Positions 4,359 through 23,012 of a DNA stretch of 24,627 bases are shown piece after piece. A model generated the notes under the pieces. It was not told the origin of the DNA and ran no database searches. It saw nothing but the letters and a program-made list of their open reading frames with translations. This DNA comes from Bacteroidales bacterium (GTDB lineage Bacteria; Bacteroidota; Bacteroidia; Bacteroidales; F082), in contig JAFRRE010000024.1 in the NCBI GenBank assembly GCA_017428285.1, positions 1 to 24,627 on the forward strand, given 5' to 3'. Each line of letters starts with the position of its first letter. Position 1 is the first letter of the stretch. Both the position numbers and the translations under genes were made by a program.

Positions 4359-6347
4359 ATGAAAAAACTCCTTCTTTCTGCGCTCCTTATGCTTTGCGTG
4401 AGCGCCTTTGCCCAAAAGCAATACACATTGCAATCGCCCGACAAGGACATCACCGTCACCATTGAGGCGGGCGAACAGCTCACTTATTCCGTCACGCATG
4501 GAAACACCTGCGTATTGACGCCCTCGCCCATAGGGATGAAACTCACAGATGGCACCACGCTTGGCACAAAACCTGTCGTGAAAAGCGCCAAGACGCGCTC
4601 GGTCAACCAAACCATGCCGTCTCCTTTATATAAAAAAGCCGAAATCCCTGAAGTCTACGAGGAACTGACACTAACCTTCAAAGGCAACTACAAGGTCATC
4701 TTCCGCGCCTACGATGCTGGTGTGGCATACCGTTTTGAGACCGACTTCCGTAAGCCTATCATTATAGAAAACGAGACCGCAGATTTTAACTTTGACAAGG
4801 ATTATCAAGGCTTTATCCCGTATGTTTTAAGGCGTGCCGGACAAGAAGGTCCACTCATCAACCAGCAGTTCTACAACTCGTTTGAGAACACCTACTCCCA
4901 TATCAACCTCAGCCAGATGGACCCCGAAAAGCTCGCCTTCCTGCCTTTGCTGGTCGAACTCAGCGACGGCAAGAAAGCCGTCATCACCGAGGCCGACTTG
5001 GAGGACTTCCCCGGTTTATATCTGCGTAACGCCAACGGCAAAAACGGACTCTCCGCCGTCCACGCGCCCTATCCCAAGACCCGCGAGCAAGGCGGCCACA
5101 ACAACCTGCAATGGATTGTGAAGGAACGCGAGAACTACATTGCCAAGACCGCCGGCAAACGCGCTTTCCCTTGGCGTATCATCGCCATCTCGGAAAATGA
5201 CAAAGAGTTGGCCGACAACGACTTAGTCTATCTCTTGGCCTCACCCAACCGCATTGGCGATGTCTCGTGGATCCAGCCCGGAAAGGTGGCTTGGGACTGG
5301 TGGAACGCATGGAACATTTATGGCGTCGACTTCAAGGCGGGCATCAACAACGACACCTATAAGTACTACATCGACTTCGCCTCGCAATACGGCATCGAAT
5401 ATGTCATCCTCGACGAAGGCTGGGCGGTCAACAAGCAAGCCGACCTTTTCCAAGTGGTGCCCGAAATCGACATCAAGGAACTAGTTGATTATGGCGCCGA
5501 GCGCAATGTGGGCATCGTGCTTTGGGTGGGCTATGCCGCCATCGACAAGGACATGGAACATGTCTGCCAACACTATGCCGACATGGGTGTGAAAGGCTTC
5601 AAGGTCGACTTCATGGACGGCGACGACCAGATGATCGTCGACTTCTACTACCGCATGGCCGAGACCGCCGCCCGTCACCACCTCTTCATCGACTTCCACG
5701 GGGCCTACAAGCCCACAGGCCTCAACCGCACCTATCCCAATGTGCTCAACCACGAAGGCGTGTATGGCCTCGAACAAGCCAAATGGGACAACGAGAGCGA
5801 CCTCGTCACCAACGAAGTCACCATCCCCTTCATCCGTATGTTGGCCGGTCCGCTTGACTACACCCAAGGCGCGATGAAAAACGCCAACAAGAACAACTTC
5901 GCCGCCATCTATACCGAGCCGATGAGTCAGGGCACACGCTGCCGTCAGCTGGCTGAATATGTGATCTTTGAATCACCGTTCAACATGCTCTGCGACAGCC
6001 CGAGCAACTACATGAAAGAAGATGAATGCACCCAATTCATCGCTTCTGTTCCCACCACTTGGGATGAGACCGTGGTGCTCGACGGCAAGGTGGGCGAATA
6101 CCTCGTCATCGCCCGTCGCAAGGACTTCCATTGGTATGTGGGTGTCATCACCAACTGGGAGGAACGCGATATTGAAATCGACCTCGGCGTGCTGCCCAAC
6201 TTCGGTGCCAAGTCGGGACATATTTTCCGTGACGGTCCCAACGCCAACCGCGTGGCAAAAGACTATGTCTCCGAGCAAGCCCAAGTGTGGGGCAACAAGG
6301 TGAAAGTGCATCTCGCCAAAGGCGGCGGTGCCGTGATGGTATTCTAA
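4359..6347 (+). CDS. Glycoside hydrolase family 97, probable retaining alpha-galactosidase type
   Basis: The 662-residue protein has signal peptide MKKLLLSALLMLCVSAFA, an N-terminal beta-sandwich (about 20-280), a (beta/alpha)8 barrel (about 290-560) and a C-terminal beta domain. Diagnostic GH97 stretches are AWDWWNAWNIYGVDF, YVILDEGW, GVKGFKVDFMDGDDQ and LAGPLDYTQGAM. From recalled literature, inverting members such as SusB use glutamates, while retaining members such as B. thetaiotaomicron BT1871 use an Asp near 415 as nucleophile. D417 in KVDFMD fits the retaining group, and the length is that of BT1871 rather than the longer SusB. E466 or E472 is a candidate acid/base. It should act in the periplasm, releasing alpha-galactosyl ends. 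It has its own promoter and terminator. Confidence 0.88.
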   Translation: MKKLLLSALLMLCVSAFAQKQYTLQSPDKDITVTIEAGEQLTYSVTHGNTCVLTPSPIGMKLTDGTTLGTKPVVKSAKTRSVNQTMPSPLYKKAEIPEVYEELTLTFKGNYKVIFRAYDAGVAYRFETDFRKPIIIENETADFNFDKDYQGFIPYVLRRAGQEGPLINQQFYNSFENTYSHINLSQMDPEKLAFLPLLVELSDGKKAVITEADLEDFPGLYLRNANGKNGLSAVHAPYPKTREQGGHNNLQWIVKERENYIAKTAGKRAFPWRIIAISENDKELADNDLVYLLASPNRIGDVSWIQPGKVAWDWWNAWNIYGVDFKAGINNDTYKYYIDFASQYGIEYVILDEGWAVNKQADLFQVVPEIDIKELVDYGAERNVGIVLWVGYAAIDKDMEHVCQHYADMGVKGFKVDFMDGDDQMIVDFYYRMAETAARHHLFIDFHGAYKPTGLNRTYPNVLNHEGVYGLEQAKWDNESDLVTNEVTIPFIRMLAGPLDYTQGAMKNANKNNFAAIYTEPMSQGTRCRQLAEYVIFESPFNMLCDSPSNYMKEDECTQFIASVPTTWDETVVLDGKVGEYLVIARRKDFHWYVGVITNWEERDIEIDLGVLPNFGAKSGHIFRDGPNANRVAKDYVSEQAQVWGNKVKVHLAKGGGAVMVF

Positions 6348-6365: not shown

Positions 6366-6421
6366 TGAGTTTTTTCCAAAGTTGTGGTTTTTATCGATTT
6401 TGGAAAAAACTCAGTTTTTTT
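6366..6421. terminator. Intrinsic terminator with perfect 15-bp stem after GH97
   Basis: TGAGTTTTTTCCAAA (6366-6380) and TTTGGAAAAAACTCA (6399-6413) are perfect inverted copies, with an 18-base loop and a T tract at 6415-6421. It follows the GH97 stop by 19 bases. The stem's own A and T runs may make it work on both strands. Confidence 0.8.
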
Positions 6422-6428
6422 CCTATGT

Positions 6429-6451
6429 TGTAAGAAATATTCTTACATTTG
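6429..6451 (+). promoter_or_regulatory. ParD/ParE promoter with overlapping operator-like inverted repeat
   Basis: TGTAAGAA (6429-6436), a 3-base spacer and TTCTTACA (6440-6447) form a perfect 8+3+8 inverted repeat. It overlaps the -7 box TACATTTG at 6444-6451, which lies 19 bases before the antitoxin ATG. ParD-type antitoxins repress their own promoter through such sites, so this is the likely autoregulatory operator. The position also supports ATG 6471 as the start. Confidence 0.7.
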
Positions 6452-6470
6452 CGGCATAAAACAAATCACT

Positions 6471-6719
6471 ATGAGCAGAACAGTAACAGCATCCTTGGGG
6501 CCTCATTATGAGGAGTTTATTCAGAACAGCATTCTCTGCGGAAGATATAACAATGCCAGTGAGGTAGTCCGGGCAGGCCTTCGGCTTTTGGAGGAAAGAG
6601 AAAAGAAAATGGAGTATTTGAGAGCTGCCATCCAAGAAGGTATTGATAGTGGAATATGCGAGGACTTTGATCCCGAAGAACATTTGAAACAACTGAAATC
6701 CGCCCGTCGTAATGGCTAA
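6471..6719 (+). CDS. ParD-type antitoxin, ribbon-helix-helix (CopG family)
   Basis: The 82-residue protein begins MSRTVTASLGPHYEEFI. The N-terminal strand and two helices (YNNASEVVRAGLRLLEERE) are the ribbon-helix-helix DNA-binding fold of ParD/CC2985-like antitoxins. The acidic C-terminal tail (IDSGICEDFDPEEHLKQL) is the part that wraps the toxin in this family. The open frame reaches back to 6384, but that stretch crosses the terminator and promoter, so ATG 6471 is chosen. It overlaps the toxin gene by 8 bases, the usual coupling that keeps antitoxin made first. Confidence 0.9.
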   Translation: MSRTVTASLGPHYEEFIQNSILCGRYNNASEVVRAGLRLLEEREKKMEYLRAAIQEGIDSGICEDFDPEEHLKQLKSARRNG

Positions 6720-7115: not shown

Positions 7116-10037
7116 ATGAAGCTGCTGAAACTCCTTATCTTACTACTGGGCTTTGCCCTTGTCCTCTACCAATGCCAGCCGAAAACCGACGGACTGACAA
7201 CCGAGCAACTATACGAGGCGTTTCAGCAACCCACCTCGGAATACCATCCTTTTGTGCGCTGGTGGTGGAACGGCGACAAAGTGGAAGCCGACGAACTCGT
7301 GCGTGAGATGCGCCTCTTGAAAGAGGCTGGCATCGGTGGCGTGGAGATCAACCCCATCGCCTTCCCTACCTACTGCGACAGCCTCGGAAAACCTTCTTTG
7401 CAATGGCTCAGCCCCGAGTGGATTGACATGCTCAAGGTATGCTTCGATGAAGCAAAACGACTCGACATGACCTGCGACCTACTTGTTGGCTCGGGCTGGC
7501 CTTTTGGAGCCGAGTTCCTCAATGAAGATGAACGGGCGCAAATCGTGGTCAACTATGCTGAAACGGTGACAGGACCCACAACGCTGACCATCATTCGTGA
7601 CAGCCTCTGCGAGAAAGCCATGCCCAAGGTAAGTTCGCCATACAAGGGAAACATCAAAGAGCTGATGTCGCTGAAACTTTATCCAAATCCAGCTTCAAGT
7701 GTTGATGAGGGGATTACCATTTGGACAACGCAAAGCAAGATCCTTGAGCCTGTCGAAAGGCCGGTTGACAGTATAATCACCATCGAAGTACCAGAAGGAA
7801 ACTACACTTTGGCCGCCTTGGTGAAGATCAACGGTTTCTTGGAAGTCATCAACGGCGCACCAGGGGCAGCTGGTCCCGTGCTCGACCATTTCAATACTGA
7901 GGCAGTCAACCGTTACCTTTACAACATGTCGGACAAAATTGAGACACAAATCGGACCGCTGAAAGGCAACATCCGAGCCCTTTTTACCGACAGTATGGAG
8001 CTCGAAGGCGCCAACTGGACCTCCGACATGGCCCAGGAGTTCGAAAAGCGTTACGGCTATGACATCACTGAATGGCTACCATTTATCCTCTTCAAGATTG
8101 GCTCTATGGGCAGCGCAATCAACTATGACCCTGTAATACCCGTCACAGAAGCCTTCCAACAAGAAATCCAACGCGCGCGATACGATTTCGAAGACTTTAA
8201 GGCCCAGCTGATGCAGGAACGCTTCACCAGCACCTATTTGGATTGGTGCCACCAACTAGGAGTGAAAGCCCGTGCCCAAGCTTACGGTCGCGGCTTCTAT
8301 CCCTTGGAGAATGCCTTGGGCTACGACATCCCTGAGGGCGAATCGTGGACCACCAACTGGCTAAAACACAAACCTGGTGAGGAAATGTCGGAAACCGACT
8401 ACCGCCGTGGGCGTGCCTATACTATGGTCAACAAGTTCGTGTCATCAGCCGCCCATCTCGCCGGCAATCGTACTATCAGCTGCGAGGAGATGACCAACAC
8501 CTACACCGTCTTCAATATGAGCCTTGAGCAACTGAAAATCGGCGGTGACCAATCGGCTATGTCGGGCATGACTCACAGCGTGTTCCATGGCTTCAACTAT
8601 TCACCTAATCTTGAAGCCAAGTTCCCCGGCTGGGTACGCTATGGTGCCTACTACAGCGAGAACAACAACTGGTGGCCGTATTTCAAGTACTACAACGATT
8701 ACAAGGCACGCCTCTCATACGCCCTTCAACATGGCACATATTACGCCGATATCGCCATCCTTAATCCCGAAAACGACATGTGGAGTACCATCGGGATGCA
8801 GAACGAGCCCTTCCCCAACACCACTCGTGCGCCCTACAAGACCTTGATTTGGGAAGCCATCAACAAATGCGGTGGAGGCGTGGACTATGTGAGCGAAAAT
8901 ATTATCAACCAGTCGAACATAAAAAAAGACAACCTCTGTTTCAACAAGTGCAAATACAACACTTTAATGCTTATTGATGTGGAGAGCCTGCACCCTGAAA
9001 CTGCCGAGCAATTGCTGCGTTTCGTGGAGACAGGAGGCAAGATTGTCTGTATCGACACCATACCTTACCAATCGTTAGGAAGGCCAGGCAACCATCAAAA
9101 AAATGATTCCCTTGTGAAGGCCACTATGGACAAGGTGATGCAGCACAAGGAACAATTTGTCTTCGTAGAGCCACCCAAAGAAGGCCTCATTCCTTGGTAC
9201 GACAGCCTTCTGCACGTCCAAAAATTGCCGCATTACCTTGAAATCAAGAATCCCGACCCATTTGTCATGCAAAATCGCTACACCACTGATGACGGCAGCG
9301 AATTGATTCTGTTGAGCAATAGCCATCGTTATAATGCTCACCAAACCAAAATCACCTTCGATGAAGCGCTGACACATAAAAAACAAGCCCAAATCTGGGA
9401 CTTGCAGACAGGCAAACGCTATGCCTTGCCTCTTGACAAGGATGGCAGCTATACCTTTGACTTGGGTCCTGTGGAGATGGTACTTGTCGTGTTCGAAAAA
9501 TCTACGCCTATCGACCTCCCAATCTGGCAACCACTCCACACCATTACCGATACTTTACCCGCCACCGACATCTCAGACCACTGGGATGTGGCCCTGTGTC
9601 ATAGCCTCTTAAAGGATACAATCAGTGCACATTTCGACACCTTGTTCGACCTGAAGGATAACGAGGCGTACCAGCATTTCTGCGGAACCATCGTTTATCA
9701 CAAAACCATCAACTGCGGTAGAGACGGTGTGCACACCGTCTCTACAATCCTAAATCTAGGCCTAGTGGAAGGCGTTTCCGAAGTATTCGTTAACGGACAA
9801 TCTGCTGGCGTACAGTATTTTGGTCGTAGAATCTACAATATCACCGATTACCTCCAAGAAGGCGAAAACGACCTTGAAGTCCGCGTGACCACCACCATGG
9901 GCAACTACCTCAAGACCTTCAGCCGAGAGGAGAACCCGACCACTTGGATATATGTGAACCATCCCAAAAGAGACCAACCTTTGCAACCCATGGGCTTGCG
10001 AGGGCCAGTCAGATTATATCATAACCCAGCCCCGTAG
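7116..10037 (+). CDS. Glycoside hydrolase family 106, alpha-L-rhamnosidase-like lipoprotein or exported enzyme
   Basis: The 973-residue protein has a hydrophobic leader ending LVLYQC, a possible lipobox with Cys20. The early run HPFVRWWWNGDKV...LKEAGIGGVEI is characteristic of GH106 alpha-L-rhamnosidases, as are GSGWPFG, the RARAQAYG-like KARAQAYG, and ISCEEMTNTY. From memory, the Bacteroides GH106 BT0986 uses glutamates near 461 and 593; E457/E458 here matches the first. The C-terminal part contains a galactose-binding-like jelly roll (VFVNGQSAGVQYFG). Residues about 868-877 are encoded by a perfect palindrome inserted in frame, and the TAG stop lies in another repeat hairpin. The likely substrate is rhamnose-containing pectin (rhamnogalacturonan), together with the GH28 downstream, 67 bases away. 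Confidence 0.85.
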   Translation: MKLLKLLILLLGFALVLYQCQPKTDGLTTEQLYEAFQQPTSEYHPFVRWWWNGDKVEADELVREMRLLKEAGIGGVEINPIAFPTYCDSLGKPSLQWLSPEWIDMLKVCFDEAKRLDMTCDLLVGSGWPFGAEFLNEDERAQIVVNYAETVTGPTTLTIIRDSLCEKAMPKVSSPYKGNIKELMSLKLYPNPASSVDEGITIWTTQSKILEPVERPVDSIITIEVPEGNYTLAALVKINGFLEVINGAPGAAGPVLDHFNTEAVNRYLYNMSDKIETQIGPLKGNIRALFTDSMELEGANWTSDMAQEFEKRYGYDITEWLPFILFKIGSMGSAINYDPVIPVTEAFQQEIQRARYDFEDFKAQLMQERFTSTYLDWCHQLGVKARAQAYGRGFYPLENALGYDIPEGESWTTNWLKHKPGEEMSETDYRRGRAYTMVNKFVSSAAHLAGNRTISCEEMTNTYTVFNMSLEQLKIGGDQSAMSGMTHSVFHGFNYSPNLEAKFPGWVRYGAYYSENNNWWPYFKYYNDYKARLSYALQHGTYYADIAILNPENDMWSTIGMQNEPFPNTTRAPYKTLIWEAINKCGGGVDYVSENIINQSNIKKDNLCFNKCKYNTLMLIDVESLHPETAEQLLRFVETGGKIVCIDTIPYQSLGRPGNHQKNDSLVKATMDKVMQHKEQFVFVEPPKEGLIPWYDSLLHVQKLPHYLEIKNPDPFVMQNRYTTDDGSELILLSNSHRYNAHQTKITFDEALTHKKQAQIWDLQTGKRYALPLDKDGSYTFDLGPVEMVLVVFEKSTPIDLPIWQPLHTITDTLPATDISDHWDVALCHSLLKDTISAHFDTLFDLKDNEAYQHFCGTIVYHKTINCGRDGVHTVSTILNLGLVEGVSEVFVNGQSAGVQYFGRRIYNITDYLQEGENDLEVRVTTTMGNYLKTFSREENPTTWIYVNHPKRDQPLQPMGLRGPVRLYHNPAP
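9718..9745. repeat. Perfect 28-bp palindrome inserted in the GH106 reading frame
   Basis: Bases 9718-9731 read GTAGAGACGGTGTG and 9732-9745 are their exact reverse complement. It encodes RDGVHTVST in the C-terminal domain. The GTAGAGACG...CGTCTCTAC ends are those of a palindromic repeat I recall from cyanobacterial and Bacteroidota genomes, so this is more likely an inserted repeat than a regulatory site. Confidence 0.85.
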
Positions 10038-16275: not shown

Positions 16276-17160
16276 TCAATTTCTCATTTTCTTCTCAAAA
16301 ACGTAGACCAAACTCGACCACTCTTCTGAACGCCTCGCTTTGCAATTTGAAATCCATCCCCGATACACTCCTCTAATCAAAGGCAAGGAATGCAGTTTGT
16401 ATTGTTCACTCATATACGAGATGTAATAGGCATCCCATCTCAGTTTATCCATCTTAATTAGTTCCAAACCACTGGTTTTGAATATTTTAGTCAGCGTGGT
16501 CTTGTTAAAATGATTCAAATGTCGCGGCACGTCGTAGGCAGCCCATAGTTCTTTGTAATATTGACCATCGTACGATTTGTAATTTGGCAAAGCAATAACA
16601 ACACGACCATTAGGCTTAATGAGACGACGCAACTGCTCAACCTGCCATTTCAAATCATCTACATGTTCGAGCACATGCCACATCGTAATCAAATCAAAAC
16701 ACCCATCAGACATATTCTCCAACTCTTCGCTCGAAAAGATCTCGCCCCGCATTCTTTTTTTCGCTATGGCCTTCGCATCCTCCGATGGCTCCACACCAGT
16801 ACATTCCCAACCATGCATTTCGGCAGTGTGCAAAAAGTCACCGACCCCGCAGCCAATATCCAACAGTTTTCCGACATTCAAGCCATTTGTGGCAAGTTTG
16901 TACTTATGCTTTAGATTTACCTTTTTCACCCTTTCATAAACCTTTGGAATAAAGCCTTTCGTATTCTCCTGATGGCTGTAATACTCTTCGGATTTATAAT
17001 AGGCTCCTATTTGGTCTTTACTTGGGCGAGGCATGGTATAGAGCAAGCCGCAATTTAGACATTCACAAATATAAAAGTCTTCTTTGGTGAGAAATTCATC
17101 TCTCAACCAAAGATTGATCTGTGCTTTATCAGAGCCGCACCACGGACATTTATTGTTCAT
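16276..17160 (-). CDS. Class I SAM-dependent methyltransferase with N-terminal zinc ribbon
   Basis: The 294-residue protein starts with a zinc-ribbon pair, CPWC (C5, C8) and CLNC (C34, C37), then the Methyltransf_23-type core with LLDIGCGVGDF at 99-109 (SAM motif I), EPSEDA (motif II) and MWHVLEHV. Related proteins often modify sugars or small molecules in surface glycan pathways; the substrate here cannot be read. The C-terminal part (DVPRHLNHFNKTTL) is typical of this subgroup. The ATG at 17160 is 8 bases after a parS-like site, and the gene starts 30 bases downstream of the mnmG stop, so it is probably the last gene of the mnmG operon. The 145 bases beyond it, before the kinase, show no strong terminator. 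Confidence 0.85.
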   Translation of the reverse strand: MNNKCPWCGSDKAQINLWLRDEFLTKEDFYICECLNCGLLYTMPRPSKDQIGAYYKSEEYYSHQENTKGFIPKVYERVKKVNLKHKYKLATNGLNVGKLLDIGCGVGDFLHTAEMHGWECTGVEPSEDAKAIAKKRMRGEIFSSEELENMSDGCFDLITMWHVLEHVDDLKWQVEQLRRLIKPNGRVVIALPNYKSYDGQYYKELWAAYDVPRHLNHFNKTTLTKIFKTSGLELIKMDKLRWDAYYISYMSEQYKLHSLPLIRGVYRGWISNCKARRSEEWSSLVYVFEKKMRN

Positions 17161-17168
17161 TTCTTCAA

Positions 17169-17184
17169 TGTTTCATGTGAAACA
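17169..17184. promoter_or_regulatory. parS-like ParB binding site downstream of mnmG
   Basis: TGTTTCATGTGAAACA matches the bacterial parS consensus TGTTTCACGTGAAACA at 15 of 16 positions (C to T at position 8). It lies between the mnmG stop and the methyltransferase start, 6 bases from the former and 8 from the latter. Confidence 0.7.
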
Positions 17185-17190
17185 ATCTCG

Positions 17191-19062
17191 TTATCTCCCT
17201 AGAAATATAGCCAACACATTGATGTCGGCTGGCGAAATCCCGCTGATTCTTGAAGCTTGCCCCAGGGTTTCCGGTTTGTAGCGATTCAGTTTTTCACGGC
17301 ATTCGTATGATAGTGATTGAATGGTATGGTAATCGAAATCTTTTGGAAGTTTGATGTACTCCAAACGATTAAGTTTTTCGGCCAATTCGTTCTCCTTTTG
17401 GATATAACTGTCATACTTGATTTGTATTTCAGCCTCTTCTAAACACTCCTTAGTAAATCTGTCACTTTCTCTAAACCGCTCAAGCGAGGATAAAACACCA
17501 ATCATATCAGAAAGACCAATTTGAGGACGCAACAGCAAATACGACAACTTGGTTTTTTGTTCGATCCTTGAACTCCCATTCTGCTCCAACAGACCGTTGG
17601 TTTCATCCGAATAGGCGTAGGTTTCATTCAAAAACGACTTAATCTCTTCCACCTTTTGTCGTTTCATCAGGTATTTTTGATATCGATCTTCCTTGGCCAA
17701 TCCGAGTTGATACGACAATTCAGTCAAACGAGCATCGGCGTTATCTTGACGCAATAAAATACGATATTCTGCTCGGCTCGTGAACATCCGATAAGGTTCA
17801 TCGACACCCTTGGTGATAAGGTCATCGATGAGCACGCCGATATAAGCCTCAGTTCTTGACAACACCAAAGGTTGTGTGTCCTGTAACGCCAAACTCGCAT
17901 TGATCCCAGCCATCATACCTTGGCAAGCGGCTTCTTCATAACCTGTGGTTCCGTTGATTTGTCCTGCAAAATAGAGTCCGTGGACAAGCCTGGTTTCTAA
18001 AGAATGATGCAACTGTTCAGGTGGAAAATAATCGTATTCGATGGCATAACCTGGCCGATAGATTTTGGCATTTTCGAAACCTTCAATTTGTCGCAAGGCC
18101 TCGTATTGGATATAATCCGGCAAGGAGGAACTGAAGCCATTGAGATAGTATTCTTCGGTGGTCCAACCTTCGGGTTCCACAAAGAGTTGGTGACTATCTT
18201 TACCGGCAAAACGTTCGATTTTGTCCTCAATACTGGGGCAATATCTTGGCCCCACGCCTTTGATTCTGCCATTGAACATAGGCGAATATTTGAACCCTTT
18301 CCGCAGCGTTTCGTGAACTTTTAAAGAGGTATGTGCAATCCAGCAACTTCTTTGTTTACCAATCCTGAAAGGTTCAGTATAGGAGAAACCCACCACTTCA
18401 TCATCTCCTTTTTGTTCGATAAGTTTGCTGAAATCTATCGTTCGGCCATCGATTCTGACAGGCGTTCCTGTCTTCAAGCGTTTGACCTCGAAACCGAGTT
18501 CTTTGAGCTGCTCACTGATGCCATGACTGGCCACCTCACCCATTCTGCCCCCCGAGAAATGTTGTTCACCAATATGAATCAAACCATTCAAAAATGTTCC
18601 ATTAGTGAGAACAACCGCCTTACTTTCAATCTCACCACCCATCATTGTCTTAACACCCTTCACTTGGTCGCCGTCAAAAAGAAGCCCTATCACCGTGTCT
18701 TGCCAAAAGTCGACATTGGGCGTCTTTTCCAACATACTGCGCCATTCAGCCGAAAACATCATCTTGTCGCTCTGGCACCTTGGACTCCACATAGCGGGAC
18801 CTTTCGACTTGTTGAGCATCCTAAATTGGATCATAGTACGGTCGCTGACAATGCCAGAATAACCACCCATGGCATCGATTTCGCGCACAATTTGTCCCTT
18901 GGCAATGCCACCCATGGCGGGATTGCACGACATGGAGGCAAACAGGCGCAAATCCATAGTGACAAGCAAAACTTTGCTGCCCATGTTGGCCGCTGACGCA
19001 GCTGCTTCACAGCCCGCGTGACCCGCGCCTACAACAATGATATCATACGGTTCAAAATACAT
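17191..19062 (-). CDS. mnmG: tRNA uridine-5-carboxymethylaminomethyl modification enzyme MnmG (GidA)
   Basis: The 623-residue protein has the FAD Rossmann motif VVGAGHAGCEAA near the N-terminus and the family signature GPRYCPSIEDKIERF. It also has YAIEYDYF and the C-terminal helical domain that ends PADINVLAIFLGR. The length is normal for the family (about 620-630). Together with MnmE (not in the window) it installs the cmnm5 group on wobble U34 of several tRNAs in the cytoplasm. A parS-like 16-mer lies 10 bases upstream of the ATG and another just after the stop. In many bacteria mnmG sits near the replication origin and the par genes. It follows ybeY by 121 bases containing a dispersed repeat, so cotranscription from the DUF4175-type promoter is possible but not certain. 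Confidence 0.97.
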   Translation of the reverse strand: MYFEPYDIIVVGAGHAGCEAAASAANMGSKVLLVTMDLRLFASMSCNPAMGGIAKGQIVREIDAMGGYSGIVSDRTMIQFRMLNKSKGPAMWSPRCQSDKMMFSAEWRSMLEKTPNVDFWQDTVIGLLFDGDQVKGVKTMMGGEIESKAVVLTNGTFLNGLIHIGEQHFSGGRMGEVASHGISEQLKELGFEVKRLKTGTPVRIDGRTIDFSKLIEQKGDDEVVGFSYTEPFRIGKQRSCWIAHTSLKVHETLRKGFKYSPMFNGRIKGVGPRYCPSIEDKIERFAGKDSHQLFVEPEGWTTEEYYLNGFSSSLPDYIQYEALRQIEGFENAKIYRPGYAIEYDYFPPEQLHHSLETRLVHGLYFAGQINGTTGYEEAACQGMMAGINASLALQDTQPLVLSRTEAYIGVLIDDLITKGVDEPYRMFTSRAEYRILLRQDNADARLTELSYQLGLAKEDRYQKYLMKRQKVEEIKSFLNETYAYSDETNGLLEQNGSSRIEQKTKLSYLLLRPQIGLSDMIGVLSSLERFRESDRFTKECLEEAEIQIKYDSYIQKENELAEKLNRLEYIKLPKDFDYHTIQSLSYECREKLNRYKPETLGQASRISGISPADINVLAIFLGR

Positions 19063-19072
19063 CTTGCGTCAG

Positions 19073-19088
19073 TGTTTCACGGGAAACA
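19073..19088. promoter_or_regulatory. parS-like ParB binding site upstream of mnmG
   Basis: TGTTTCACGGGAAACA matches parS consensus TGTTTCACGTGAAACA at 15 of 16 positions (T to G at position 10). It lies 10 bases upstream of the mnmG start, in its leader. Confidence 0.7.
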
Positions 19089-19142
19089 ATTGTTTTATCT
19101 TTTTGATTATCAATATTATAAATAACTTATTCATTTATTACG

Positions 19143-19206
19143 GGCCCTTCGACAGGCTCAGGAACCCTTAACTCTCGAAAGAGCTAAGGCCGTTGAGCTT
19201 GTCGAA
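19143..19206. repeat. Palindromic repeat of the TTCGACAGGCTCAGG family overlapping the 3' end of ybeY
   Basis: The left arm TTCGACAGGCTCAGG (19148-19162) and right arm CCGTTGAGCTTGTCGAA (19190-19206) are imperfect inverted copies. A small CTCTCGAAAGAG hairpin lies between them. The same core occurs three times in tandem at 22566-22637. I recall this sequence as a dispersed repeat in Bacteroidota. The right arm encodes the last residues of YbeY and its stop codon. Confidence 0.8.
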
Positions 19207-19627
19207 ACGCCGACTCTAACAGTTTTAACGCTTCTTCCTCTTTTTCTCTCATCTCTTTCTCCTCTTCATCCGTCAAGTCATCAAATCCGATAAGATGCAA
19301 TACACCATGGATAATGACGCGATGTAATTCGCTCTCATAGCTGCGACCAAATGTCTCGGCATTCTCCTTGATCCGGTCGATACTGATGCAAAACTCACTC
19401 GAAAGTACCGTCTCGCATTCCGTCAACGGGAAGGTCACAATGTCGGTGTAGAAATCATGGCCAAGACGCTCTTTATTGATTTCAAGCAGTTTCTCATCGC
19501 TGCAAAAATAGTAGTACAACTCCCCTACGGTCTTACCATGCTTTTCGACAACCTCACCAATCCAAGCTTTGACGCGCTGTGGCTCAATGGGCGGCATTTC
19601 CACATCCAAAGTACTGAATCTTATCAT
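19184..19627 (-). CDS. ybeY: Endoribonuclease / rRNA maturation factor YbeY
   Basis: The 147-residue protein has the UPF0054 core: an SDEKLLEINKERLGHDFYTDIVTFP-type region (shown in part; key DFYTDIVTFP) and the metal site HGVLHLIGFDD (H107, H111). The third ligand, normally His, is D117. I believe Asp or a non-His residue at this place is usual in Bacteroidota. YbeY is a cytoplasmic metal-dependent factor for 16S rRNA 3'-end maturation and ribosome quality control. The start is separated by one base from the stop of the upstream DUF4175-type gene, implying translational coupling. The C-terminal FRQAQRP is supplied by the palindromic repeat at 19143-19206, so the ancestral C-terminus was probably different. 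Confidence 0.95.
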   Translation of the reverse strand: MIRFSTLDVEMPPIEPQRVKAWIGEVVEKHGKTVGELYYYFCSDEKLLEINKERLGHDFYTDIVTFPLTECETVLSSEFCISIDRIKENAETFGRSYESELHRVIIHGVLHLIGFDDLTDEEEKEMREKEEEALKLLESAFRQAQRP

Positions 19628-19628
19628 C

Positions 19629-22600
19629 TTAATGCGTGTTTTTCTTCAAGTAATACTCGTTGATCTTATCTTTGTAGTAAGGAGCATATTCGATCGGATT
19701 GCTGCGTAGGAACTCCTGGTTTTTCTTGAGCGACTGTTCATAAAGATAATCGTCAATCCTGCGGTCGAAATGCGAACCTTTGTACTCGTTCGACTTGCGT
19801 TTCTCTTCTTGCTCGCGTTTCTCCTGCGCTTTTTGCGACTCCAACATTCTGGACTCAATGCGTTGGCTGCGCTCAATCATCTGATGGTTGATCTTTTTGT
19901 TCACCAACTCCTCCTCCAACTTCTCCATATCCTTGATAATCTCATTCAAGCCATCATCGCCAATTTGCCCGTTTTCTTTCATATCATTAAGCATCTGCTG
20001 CATACCTTGACGCAACATTTCCTGCTCGGCAGCCATACGGGCAAATTCCTCACTCATTGAGTTAGGTGTCTGCTGCCCTGATTCCATTTGTTGCTGCATT
20101 TTCTGTAATTGATCGCTCAACTGTTGCTGCAACTGCTGCATCTTCTGCATGCTCTGTCCTTGACCCGGCTTGGGCATGGGACACGACATCGGCATACCCA
20201 TGGCATTCATACTGTTCTCCATATTCTCCAATGACTCAGCCAGCATCAACGCCAAATTGTTCATCGACATCATGGCAGTCTGCTGATGGCGCACGGCTTG
20301 CGAAAGTTTTAAGTCATTGAGGTATTTCATCGCGTTTTCAGTCTGATTCTCAATGGTATGCAGCTCATCAAAGACAAAATTTTGAATCGATGGCTGGCGC
20401 AAAGCCATACTACGCAGCGAGTCACGGACCATAATGAAATTGTCGGCCACTTCCTTTTGATGGATAATCTTTTCAACCAAAGACGGGTCATCGGAACGCA
20501 TTTTACCAATTTCGGTCATCAAGTCTTCCTGCTCGTGCGAGGCATGGACCACATTTTCGAGCAAAATGCGCAGCAAATGGGCATCCTCTGCCATTTGTTG
20601 CATACCTTGCATCTGCATTTGCATCATCATCTGGTTGGCCATCTGCTGCATCTTTTGACCGGCATTCTGCTTCTTCTGCTGTGATTGTTGTTGTTGACTG
20701 TTCTGCTCGTTTTGCATGGCATCTTGCAGGTCTTGGTCGATGCTTTCTTGCATCTCCTCGTCTTTCTGCATGTCGAAAGGCTGTTGCAGATCTTGGTTTT
20801 TCTCCAACAGTTTATCAAGCTCTTCCATCATCTTGTCGAATTCCTCTTTGGCTTCCTCGGCCGATTTTTGGTCGCTCTCCTCCCCTGCTTTATTCTGATT
20901 TTCAGCCTCTTGGTTTTTCAACTCCTCTCCCAGTTTGTCCAATTTATTGGCCAAATCGTTGAGGTCTTTCTCCATTTTCAGCTGTTCAAGAAGCGCCAAA
21001 TTACGGTCAAGCAGTTCCTGCATCGACTGATTGTTTTTCTTGATGTTCTGCATCATTTGTTGCATCTGCTCGCGCGGCATTTCCTCAAGCAACTTGTCAA
21101 TCTGCTCCATCATCTTTTTCAACTCTTCGGGAATCACTTCATCGAAAAGTTTGTTGATTTGTTCCTGCTTCTTGATGAGGTCTTCGTTGCCCAAGTCGTG
21201 CTCTTTCATGAAGTCCTCAAGTTTATTTTGTTCTTCTTGCAACTTGTTCCATTCGTCCTGAATCTGTTGCTGCTTCTCCAACAGGTCTTTCATCTTTTCC
21301 TTGTCCGACCAATCCAAATCTTTTTTCTGGATGAGGTCTTGCAGCATCTTTTCGATTTCGTCTTGCAACTTGTCAGCCTCTTGTGACTTCTCCTGCAGGC
21401 GTTCCATGATGTCTTCCGACTGCAGGTCAGCAATGCTGTCTAAGGCACTTTCGGAAGGTTTATAATAGGTGAAAGTTTCCGAGCGTTTCGACTTGGGCCC
21501 GTGGAAACCGTCGTTGTCCCACACCTCGAAATAGACTTCCATATTTTGTCCCGCCATAATGCCCAGGCTATCCATGTTGAAGCTGTAGAAGAACGAGGTG
21601 CGGGTCTGCTTGAGATCCAACGCGACCGTCTTGACGATTTTCTTTTCGATAGGTTCCTTGACAATGCAGTTGAAGGTGAGTTTGCTGAAACCATAGTCAT
21701 CGGTGACAAGACCCGAGTAATACACATCGGTGGAGAGTTGCTCATCGAACGACTCCACACGGATGTCGGGATAGGCATCAGGCAACACATCGATAGAGAA
21801 GGGGAGGGGCTCTATACTATTGTTCCAAGCGTTTTGCACCTGCACTTCAAACTTGGTGGACTGTGCCGCTACGAATTGGTATTCAAAATTGTCATCGGTT
21901 GCGGTCAAGTCGGTGGTCAGTGAATCGCGGGTGACGGAAATATGCTCAGTGTCTCGGGTGGTAAAGCTAAAGGTGAGTTTTGTGCCTTGCGGGACGATGA
22001 GTCGCGTCTTGGCATCCAAGGTCTCGTTGGTGCGGTGTATATAAGAGGGATAGTTTAACTCGCAGCGATAGGAGAGTAGGGTTGGGTTGGGATGCACCGT
22101 GATATGCAATGGACGGCTAGTGTATTCGCCTCCGATGACATTAAAGGTCAAATCGTTGAAGAGGTTCTTGAAAGTGTAACTGAAATCGTTGGCCGAGCCT
22201 TTGGTCATCAGTTGTTGACCCAGTTCGCTTTTCACATAGAAGGCATCGGGGATACGGTCGCCGGTAACGCGGATGTTGAACTTCACTTCCTTGCCTTGGG
22301 TGGTCTCAATCTCGTCCTGTTCGATTTCCACCTGATAGGGGAGGGGCTTCTCGAAATGCTGCTCGTAGTTGACGATGCGCTGCGTGGGGTGCACAGCAAA
22401 CGAAGGCAGAAACACCATCAAGGCAATTAATATAAGGAGCGAACCGAAAAAGATGCCGAGATACTTCAAGTTACTTCGCAAGTCGACGGCATCAGAAAAG
22501 CGGATAGGGGAGAGGCGGGCACTACGCTGCTCGATGGTAGCTGCCAACAGGGCATTGTCTTCAGAGGTCCCTGAGCCCGTTGAAGTTAAGGTCCCTGAGC

Positions 22601-23012
22601 CCGTCGAAGTTAAGGTCCCTGAGCCCGTCGAAGGGCCGACCTTATTTTTTGAGGCCTCCATCTGGTTGCTCAACTGTATTGTGTTCAACAGCTTATCCTT
22701 GATTTCAGGGAAAAACTTACCAATCAGCACCGAGGCTTGTTCCACCGACATCTTCTTTCGGAATCGGATGAGGTTAACAAGCGGAATAAGAAAATGATAC
22801 ACCAAAACAAAACCGCTACCAGCCAGCAAAAACAGGAAGAGCACGAAGCGACCTTTGGGCGGGAACCAAGAGAAATACTCCAACCCATTGATGAGCAGAT
22901 AGAAGACAATCCAAAGCACGGCGCCCACCAATACGCCTTGTATCAGACGGTTAAGGTAGTACTTCCGCGTGAAGCCTTCGATTTTCTCTATCAATTTGTT
23001 TGGTGCAGACAT
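19629..23012 (-). CDS. DUF4175-type large membrane-anchored coiled-coil protein
   Basis: From ATG 23012 the protein has 1127 residues. An upstream in-frame ATG at 23045 is rejected because it lies before the -7 box. There are membrane helices at about 23-43, 56-78 and 170-192, then an Ig-like beta region (about 200-520). A long charged coiled-coil, rich in Gln, Met, Glu and Lys, fills the second half (LQEKSQEADKLQDEIEKMLQ; MQQMANQMMMQMQMQGMQQM). This architecture and its place before ybeY and mnmG match the DUF4175 family of Bacteroidota; function is not established. Residues 126-149 are PSTGSGTLTSTGSGT-type sequence made by three tandem copies of a dispersed repeat, lying in the cytoplasmic loop between the second and third helices. 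Confidence 0.8.
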   Translation of the reverse strand: MSAPNKLIEKIEGFTRKYYLNRLIQGVLVGAVLWIVFYLLINGLEYFSWFPPKGRFVLFLFLLAGSGFVLVYHFLIPLVNLIRFRKKMSVEQASVLIGKFFPEIKDKLLNTIQLSNQMEASKNKVGPSTGSGTLTSTGSGTLTSTGSGTSEDNALLAATIEQRSARLSPIRFSDAVDLRSNLKYLGIFFGSLLILIALMVFLPSFAVHPTQRIVNYEQHFEKPLPYQVEIEQDEIETTQGKEVKFNIRVTGDRIPDAFYVKSELGQQLMTKGSANDFSYTFKNLFNDLTFNVIGGEYTSRPLHITVHPNPTLLSYRCELNYPSYIHRTNETLDAKTRLIVPQGTKLTFSFTTRDTEHISVTRDSLTTDLTATDDNFEYQFVAAQSTKFEVQVQNAWNNSIEPLPFSIDVLPDAYPDIRVESFDEQLSTDVYYSGLVTDDYGFSKLTFNCIVKEPIEKKIVKTVALDLKQTRTSFFYSFNMDSLGIMAGQNMEVYFEVWDNDGFHGPKSKRSETFTYYKPSESALDSIADLQSEDIMERLQEKSQEADKLQDEIEKMLQDLIQKKDLDWSDKEKMKDLLEKQQQIQDEWNKLQEEQNKLEDFMKEHDLGNEDLIKKQEQINKLFDEVIPEELKKMMEQIDKLLEEMPREQMQQMMQNIKKNNQSMQELLDRNLALLEQLKMEKDLNDLANKLDKLGEELKNQEAENQNKAGEESDQKSAEEAKEEFDKMMEELDKLLEKNQDLQQPFDMQKDEEMQESIDQDLQDAMQNEQNSQQQQSQQKKQNAGQKMQQMANQMMMQMQMQGMQQMAEDAHLLRILLENVVHASHEQEDLMTEIGKMRSDDPSLVEKIIHQKEVADNFIMVRDSLRSMALRQPSIQNFVFDELHTIENQTENAMKYLNDLKLSQAVRHQQTAMMSMNNLALMLAESLENMENSMNAMGMPMSCPMPKPGQGQSMQKMQQLQQQLSDQLQKMQQQMESGQQTPNSMSEEFARMAAEQEMLRQGMQQMLNDMKENGQIGDDGLNEIIKDMEKLEEELVNKKINHQMIERSQRIESRMLESQKAQEKREQEEKRKSNEYKGSHFDRRIDDYLYEQSLKKNQEFLRSNPIEYAPYYKDKINEYYLKKNTH
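22566..22637. repeat. Three tandem 24-bp copies of the GGTCCCTGAGCCCGTCGAAG repeat inside a gene
   Basis: Units at 22566-22589, 22590-22613 and 22614-22637 share GGTCCCTGAGCCCGT(C/T)GAAG. The first two end GTTAA and the last GGGCC. Each is 8 codons, read on the minus strand as STGSGTLT. The core is the same as in the element next to ybeY. Confidence 0.92.

Follow-up and report, generated by a model that had tools for sequence, protein, structure and literature searches.

The gene mnmG (gidA) of a Bacteroidales bacterium is bracketed by two 16-base palindromes, and these raise the question of whether they are chromosomal parS (centromere-like) sites and, if so, why they stand at this gene. The chromosomal parS consensus, TGTTTCACGTGAAACA, reportedly goes back to the survey of Livny et al. 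2007. The window, i.e., the whole stretch of DNA that was analysed, is 24,627 nucleotides long, and the features that matter here are the following:

16276-17160, minus strand: methyltransferase gene, the next gene after the lower site (open reading frame and Pfam scan)
17169-17184, minus strand: lower parS-like site, TGTTTCATGTGAAACA, one mismatch to TGTTTCACGTGAAACA; read along mnmG, TGTTTCACATGAAACA
17191-19062, minus strand: mnmG (gidA), the bracketed gene (PF01134, PF13932, PF21680; Pfam GIDA E 1.7e-156)
19073-19088, minus strand: upper parS-like site, TGTTTCACGGGAAACA, one mismatch to TGTTTCACGTGAAACA; read along mnmG, TGTTTCCCGTGAAACA
19184-19627, minus strand: ybeY, the neighbour upstream of mnmG (PF02130)

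On the evidence discussed below, the two palindromes are very probably chromosomal parS sites of this bacterium, predicted to be ParB-loaded and origin-proximal, and would be cis-acting sites that stayed with mnmG while dnaA and parAB left.

A first-pass annotation of the window had reported two 16-mers at 17169-17184 and 19073-19088, each one base off parS, the former 6 bases past the mnmG stop codon and the latter 10 bases before its ATG, and all of these values were reproduced. The lower site follows mnmG and has an intact mnmG-facing half; the upper site precedes mnmG, and its mnmG-facing half is also intact, while the other half carries a C for the A at parS position 6. The methyltransferase gene starts 8 bases beyond the lower site, and a DUF4175 gene and ybeY are located on the opposite side of mnmG. 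This gene order (DUF4175, ybeY, mnmG, methyltransferase) is common to the window and a Dyadobacter locus, L078. Pfam scans of 15 distinct open reading frames of the window revealed no ParA, ParB or DnaA family, as had been noted earlier for parA, parB and dnaA; further frames of the window are mostly antisense to these 15.

The two matches could be due to chance, and two matches within three mismatches were reached in 2 of 100 dinucleotide shuffles of the window. The shuffle mean is 0.07 matches, and in the whole 24.6 kb window the two 16-mers are the only matches to parS at up to three mismatches.

Some other features of the window were observed as well. Five copies of a dispersed motif resembling CCTTCGACAGGCTCAGG, with up to three mismatches, were seen (shuffle mean 0.05), with positions at 22570-22634, 19146-19162 and 7743-7759; three of the copies stand at 24-base spacing within the DUF4175 open reading frame and give rise to repeated residues. 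The stretch 2277-2293, a candidate copy of a second dispersed repeat, has two mismatches to the motif of that repeat, and 7 of 100 shuffles also give one match; it is contained in an open reading frame at 2130-2948 with residues such as SLRGTKQS. A ParD-type antitoxin gene (PF03693) is present at 6384-6719, between glycoside hydrolase genes.

The whole-genome tests were made on the genomes of relatives. The nearest of these, G001 (77% complete, about 3 Mb), has 55% of sampled 31-mers in common with the window, and its MnmG is 99% identical. The close loci are Bacteroidales bins from gut and rumen, one of which, Candidatus Limimorpha equi, has an MnmG identity of 85%. At up to one mismatch, G001 contains two sites only, both at mnmG; two mismatches add two more, one on the same contig at 15.6 kb from mnmG and one on another contig, with one match for the reversed control. 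In the genus as a whole, 26 sites at up to one mismatch were found in 19 of 36 genomes, every one of them 6-12 bases from an mnmG match, and the reversed parS pattern had no match in all 60 relatives. The sites are thus not scattered over the chromosomes of these relatives; scattered matches were the outcome that the first-pass annotation had named as evidence against its reading. Five of the 17 genus genomes without such a site (G002, G004, G007, G008 and G027) also lack an mnmG match; among the other 12, 11 have flanking sites at two or three mismatches, and G035 yielded no locus for this comparison.

Conservation was also followed in 41 named loci at genus level (MnmG identity at least 77%), a set that overlaps with the genus genomes and includes two loci from one bin. 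With TGTTYCACGTGRAACA as the search pattern, two mismatches allowed and a range of about 200 bases, the upper site was found in 40/40 loci having that flank, the lower site in 41/41, and both sites in 40/40 loci having both flanks. Loss of both sites in relatives that keep mnmG, which had likewise been put forward as an argument against parS, was accordingly not seen. Beyond 1 kb from mnmG, these loci have a single further site in 648,749 bases. The mean information content is 1.76 bits per position in the upper site, compared with 0.48-1.00 in its flanks, and also 1.76 in the lower site, compared with 0.38-1.11; for these values each genus row was anchored at its best match within 40 bases, a choice that favours the site, and two loci were omitted, one lacking the upstream flank and another whose lower site is 169 bases away. 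Chance has already been refuted by this conservation, since both sites are present in 40/40 loci and are better conserved than their flanks, and the predominant placement at mnmG across genomes also stands against it; its probability is practically nil.

The two halves of the sites are not conserved to the same degree, which is a lead to follow. Among 83 scored genus sites, window included, the mnmG-facing half is perfect and the outer half imperfect in 76, the reverse is true for four, and neither half is perfect in three, counts that are inflated by relatedness; none of the 83 has two perfect halves. Sites with two perfect halves do occur outside the genus, where they make up 14 of 29 upper sites and 9 of 14 lower ones; the remaining upper sites favour the inner half (11 vs 2), and the remaining lower sites do not (1 vs 3).

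A parS site is further expected to have a cognate chromosomal ParB with the residues that read it. The ParB family TIGR00180 scores above its family cut-off in 58 of 60 relatives and in 21 of 21 single-contig genomes, so absence of a parB gene, the third argument against parS that had been anticipated, does not apply to the relatives. In G001, there is a single ParB-family match, directly after parA, with sequence matches to solved ParB, Spo0J and Noc structures. Noc, the nucleoid occlusion protein, is paralogous to ParB, and the passages of PMC7383237 used here describe R173 and G201 as discriminating residues in ParB, Q173 and R201 as their counterparts in Noc, and positions 179 and 184 as permissive. 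An alternative is that the two palindromes are Noc-binding sites (NBS) of a Noc-like protein and not ParB sites. In one half of the upper site, position 6 is a cytosine of the NBS type, and the G001 protein has a lysine at the permissive position 184 (both roles from the same part of PMC7383237). However, an NBS is defined there by A at position 1 together with C at position 6, and position 1 is a parS-like G in both halves of both sites, with C at position 6 confined to one half of one site. The protein side also speaks against Noc. In an alignment of ParB-family proteins from 51 loci (30 from the genus and 21 single-contig genomes), R173 is present in 51/51 and R201 in none, with residue 201 being glycine in 45 and alanine in six (residue roles as given in PMC7383237, in part). 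G001 has both R173 and G201, and its one ParB-family match comes after parA. A Noc-like system is thus very improbable, and the reading of the palindromes as parS is preferred.

G201 has been reported to be absolutely conserved (excerpt of PMC7383237). Within the genus, residue 201 could be assigned in 35 of 36 proteins (30 loci plus five added stretches), with glycine in 26, alanine in eight and serine in one. Both flanks are available for 29 genus genomes. Of the 20 with G201, 19 have no more than one mismatch in the lower site (G025 being the exception), and eight of the nine with A201 or S201 have at least two there (G009 being the exception). In the upper site, all 20 genomes with G201 have one mismatch or none, and 7/9 with A201 or S201 have two. 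Residue 201 of ParB therefore varies together with the mnmG-flank sites in this genus, which we regard as a lead; because the A201 genomes probably form one clade, this co-variation may represent as few as two events.

The association between the sites and mnmG extends beyond the genus. The rest of the order was represented by 24 genomes, each of a different family. Of these, 20 contain consensus sites at up to one mismatch, with 41 sites in total; 31 sites, spread over 19 of the 24 genomes, are no more than 1 kb from mnmG, 35 are within 10 kb, and six are on other contigs (G049, G053, G058 and G044). Four genomes of the order lack a site, of which G045, G050 and G054 also lack an mnmG match and G037 has mnmG. 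A phylum sample of 247 genomes includes 32 single-contig genomes, and 21 of these were searched: all 13 Bacteroidia and eight of 19 from other classes. The 13 Bacteroidia have 41 consensus sites; 35 of them, from 12 of the genomes, are at most 1 kb from mnmG, and G062 has no site near mnmG. In the eight genomes of other classes, 10 of 21 sites (seven genomes) are within 1 kb of mnmG and 20 of 21 within 20 kb. Clusters of up to seven sites are found upstream of mnmG within 0.6 kb in other single-contig genomes, and G265 has two more sites 4-6 kb away. The reversed control of the degenerate pattern gave a single match in each of six genomes among the 21 single-contig ones, and likewise in three among 28 others. 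Outside the genus, 39 named Bacteroidota loci were compared: 28/37 have the upper site, 14/39 the lower and 10/37 both, and six of the 39 have no site within 400 bp. From these counts, the two-sided bracket is the rule in the genus and common, but not universal, beyond it. In three of the Bacteroidota loci outside the genus (L092, L107 and L113), a TGTTTCACGTGGAACA site was also observed inside the mnmG coding sequence, 377 bases in and at an equal offset.

The proximity to mnmG could also mean that the palindromes are operators for an mnmG regulator or mRNA hairpins, unrelated to chromosome segregation. With the upper site 10 bases before the ATG and the lower site just before the next start codon, both positions would be good for control; a weak sigma-70-like match (9 of 12) overlaps the lower site, and seven such matches occur in the region with 4.7 expected. 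Bacteroidetes-type promoters have the element TANNTTTG. On the mnmG strand, the first match to this element upstream of the upper site is found only at a distance of over 400 bases, at 19503-19510. A 6-bp RNA stem is possible at the lower site, yet its folding (z -0.96) was equalled by 34 of 200 shuffles, and for the upper site shuffled sequences fold as well as the real one (z -0.02). In addition, the mirrored form of the upper site was found in 2 of 40 distinct genus sequences, a form that is the same site to a DNA-binding dimer. The only terminator-like match in 16900-19700 is at 17209-17230, within the end of mnmG, so an RNA hairpin or terminator at the sites was rejected as a candidate. 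A sequence one base from the parS consensus, the clustering of up to seven sites within 0.6 kb upstream of mnmG in other single-contig genomes, and the kept ParB contact residues (roles from the cited part of PMC7383237) all argue against operators as well. A regulatory or hairpin function is therefore improbable, and parS remains the preferred identity.

If the sites are parS, the next question is whether they mark the replication origin. In the passages used here, gidA is listed among origin genes (PMC2099444), and the Prevotella intermedia authors describe the Bacteroidetes origin as commonly far from dnaA (PMC4755523). Hi-C analysis of 12 gut bacteria, including Bacteroides caecimuris and Muribaculum intestinale, placed parS clusters at the skew-defined origin, which was supported by read coverage and was not systematically at dnaA (PMC10197239, in part; TGTTTCACGTGAAACA is printed there as the parS consensus). 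Both points, an origin far from dnaA in the phylum and parS clusters at the origin, are thus already in print, to judge from these excerpts. In Porphyromonas gingivalis, oriC has been set at dnaA (PMC5771137, in part), a placement that would be contrary to an origin at mnmG if it is more than a numbering convention.

In 12 of the 13 single-contig Bacteroidia, mnmG is separated from dnaA by 19-45% and from parB by 15-46% of the chromosome, with 0.4% and 7.7%, respectively, in G062; in the eight single-contig genomes of other classes, the distance from mnmG to dnaA is 0.6-31% (some chromosome lengths in these comparisons are rounded). A compact par locus, with parAB beside parS, does not agree with the 7.7-46% of the chromosome that separates parB from mnmG in the 13 Bacteroidia. 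In all 20 relatives examined (16 at genus level and four of the order), dnaA and mnmG are on different contigs, which, as the genomes are drafts, says only that dnaA is absent from the mnmG contig. In G116, G177, G229 and G265, parB is 3.5-5% of the chromosome from dnaA, and in G031 (contig C24) it is about 52 kb from dnaA, in each case away from mnmG; in these five genomes, parB and dnaA look as if they had moved together.

The local skew within 10 kb of mnmG (81 loci) shows no clean switch, and whole chromosomes were sampled for this reason. Twenty 20-kb stretches per genome, about 5% of the chromosome apart, were taken from five of the 13 single-contig Bacteroidia, and the origin was fitted as the negative-to-positive switch of either raw GC skew or third-codon (GC3) skew. 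With GC3 skew, mnmG is within the fitted origin interval in G285 and G154 and outside it by 2.5 kb (0.05%) in G229, 19 kb (0.5%) in G193 and 128 kb (3.7%) in G257; termini were allowed only 35-65% away in this fit, which narrows some intervals. With raw GC skew, the distance from the fitted origin to mnmG is 0.5% in G193, 4.1% in G154, 6.8% in G257 and 14.8% in G229, and for G285 the change of sign falls somewhere from about 4.39 Mb to the end of the record, roughly 2-5% from mnmG. One contig was sampled in the genus, C1 of G307 (561 kb, with mnmG at 214 kb). Its skew is mostly negative to about 270 kb, then mixed, and mostly positive from about 364 kb. By this sign pattern the switch lies to the right of mnmG, at a distance of roughly 60-180 kb, so that mnmG is close to the switch without coinciding with it. 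The claim of the first-pass annotation that the segment is origin-proximal is thus backed by GC3 skew in five relatives, whereas raw skew agrees more loosely and the switch in the genus contig lies some distance off. In the five single-contig relatives sampled, the mnmG-flank sites lie at or close to the origin defined by GC3 skew, and such sites appear to mark the origin neighbourhood.

DnaA boxes were scanned in 81 loci, with one mismatch allowed and clusters defined within 300 bases. Eight loci, seven from Dyadobacter and one from Persicitalea, have 6-11 boxes about 2.6-2.8 kb past the mnmG stop codon, and these clusters are likely to be oriC. The cluster is at 14470-14915 in L078; in L086, L094, L096, L098, L105, L106 and L111 its offset relative to the start of mnmG is about 4.5-4.7 kb; no dnaA was noticed among the open reading frames of L078 listed from position 6000 on. 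Smaller clusters were found in L092, L104 and L107 (3-4 boxes) and in L125 and L213 (three boxes). In the window and the genus-level loci, no DnaA-box cluster was found near mnmG.

By analogy with the known ParABS system, a ParB dimer would recognise each of the two 16-mers and be loaded at both as a CTP-bound clamp, which could then slide over mnmG (1.9 kb between the sites) and its neighbours. ParA would move the resulting ParB-DNA complex, so that the origin-proximal segment would be segregated first. An effect of ParB on mnmG expression is possible because the upper site stands just before the start codon; gene silencing has been shown for plasmid ParB (review PMC7333895, in part). As for the history of the locus, we infer an order of events in which the cis-acting sites of Bacteroidota remained beside mnmG, where the origin had been from the outset, and dnaA and parAB, which encode the trans-acting proteins, would have moved away in most lineages.

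A much wider reading is put forward only tentatively, as it is rather doubtful in its full extent. It holds that the Bacteroidota centromere has kept its place at mnmG, flanking the gene on either side in many lineages, and probably did so from an early stage of the phylum, as the remnant of an old origin cluster after dnaA and parAB left; that in the genus the sites and ParB co-evolve, with G201 changing to alanine or serine where the sites drifted; and that the mnmG-facing half-sites are kept while the outer ones decay. If true, the kept inner and decaying outer halves would point to polarity in ParB loading. 

As a practical matter, the sites offer a simple tag by which the origin region can be located in the sequence of many Bacteroidota, draft metagenome bins among them, for which dnaA is a misleading guide. 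They also suggest that mnmG plus parS is the piece of the ancestral origin cluster that remains at the origin once the protein genes leave. The genus further offers naturally occurring ParB variants in which a contact residue has changed alongside the sites, a set that is open to direct in vitro testing.

No report of parS on both sides of mnmG was found in the literature, which was searched mostly by title and the start of the abstract, with Livny et al. 2007 outside this scope; the part of PMC13342612 used here also contains nothing on a two-sided mnmG bracket. Compared with known systems, the sites resemble Noc and its NBS in that the protein families are paralogous and that one half of the upper site has C at position 6, but differ from them in position 1 and in protein residues 173 and 201, which are not of the Noc type (PMC7383237, in part). 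They resemble chromosomal ParABS in the equal 16-bp palindrome, present in few, clustered copies near the skew-defined origin in relatives, and in the parA-parB operon of G001 with parS-type contact residues (again from that part of PMC7383237). Unlike chromosomal ParABS, parAB is apart from the mnmG sites, at 15-46% in 12 of 13 single-contig Bacteroidia and 7.7% in G062, and 83/83 scored genus sites have at least one imperfect half. The study in PMC10197239 is close to the present one in that it includes two Bacteroidetes and places the origin by parS clusters together with GC skew; neither mnmG nor a two-sided bracket is named in the passages of that paper used here, and the present data add the placement at mnmG in the genus, the order and the class.
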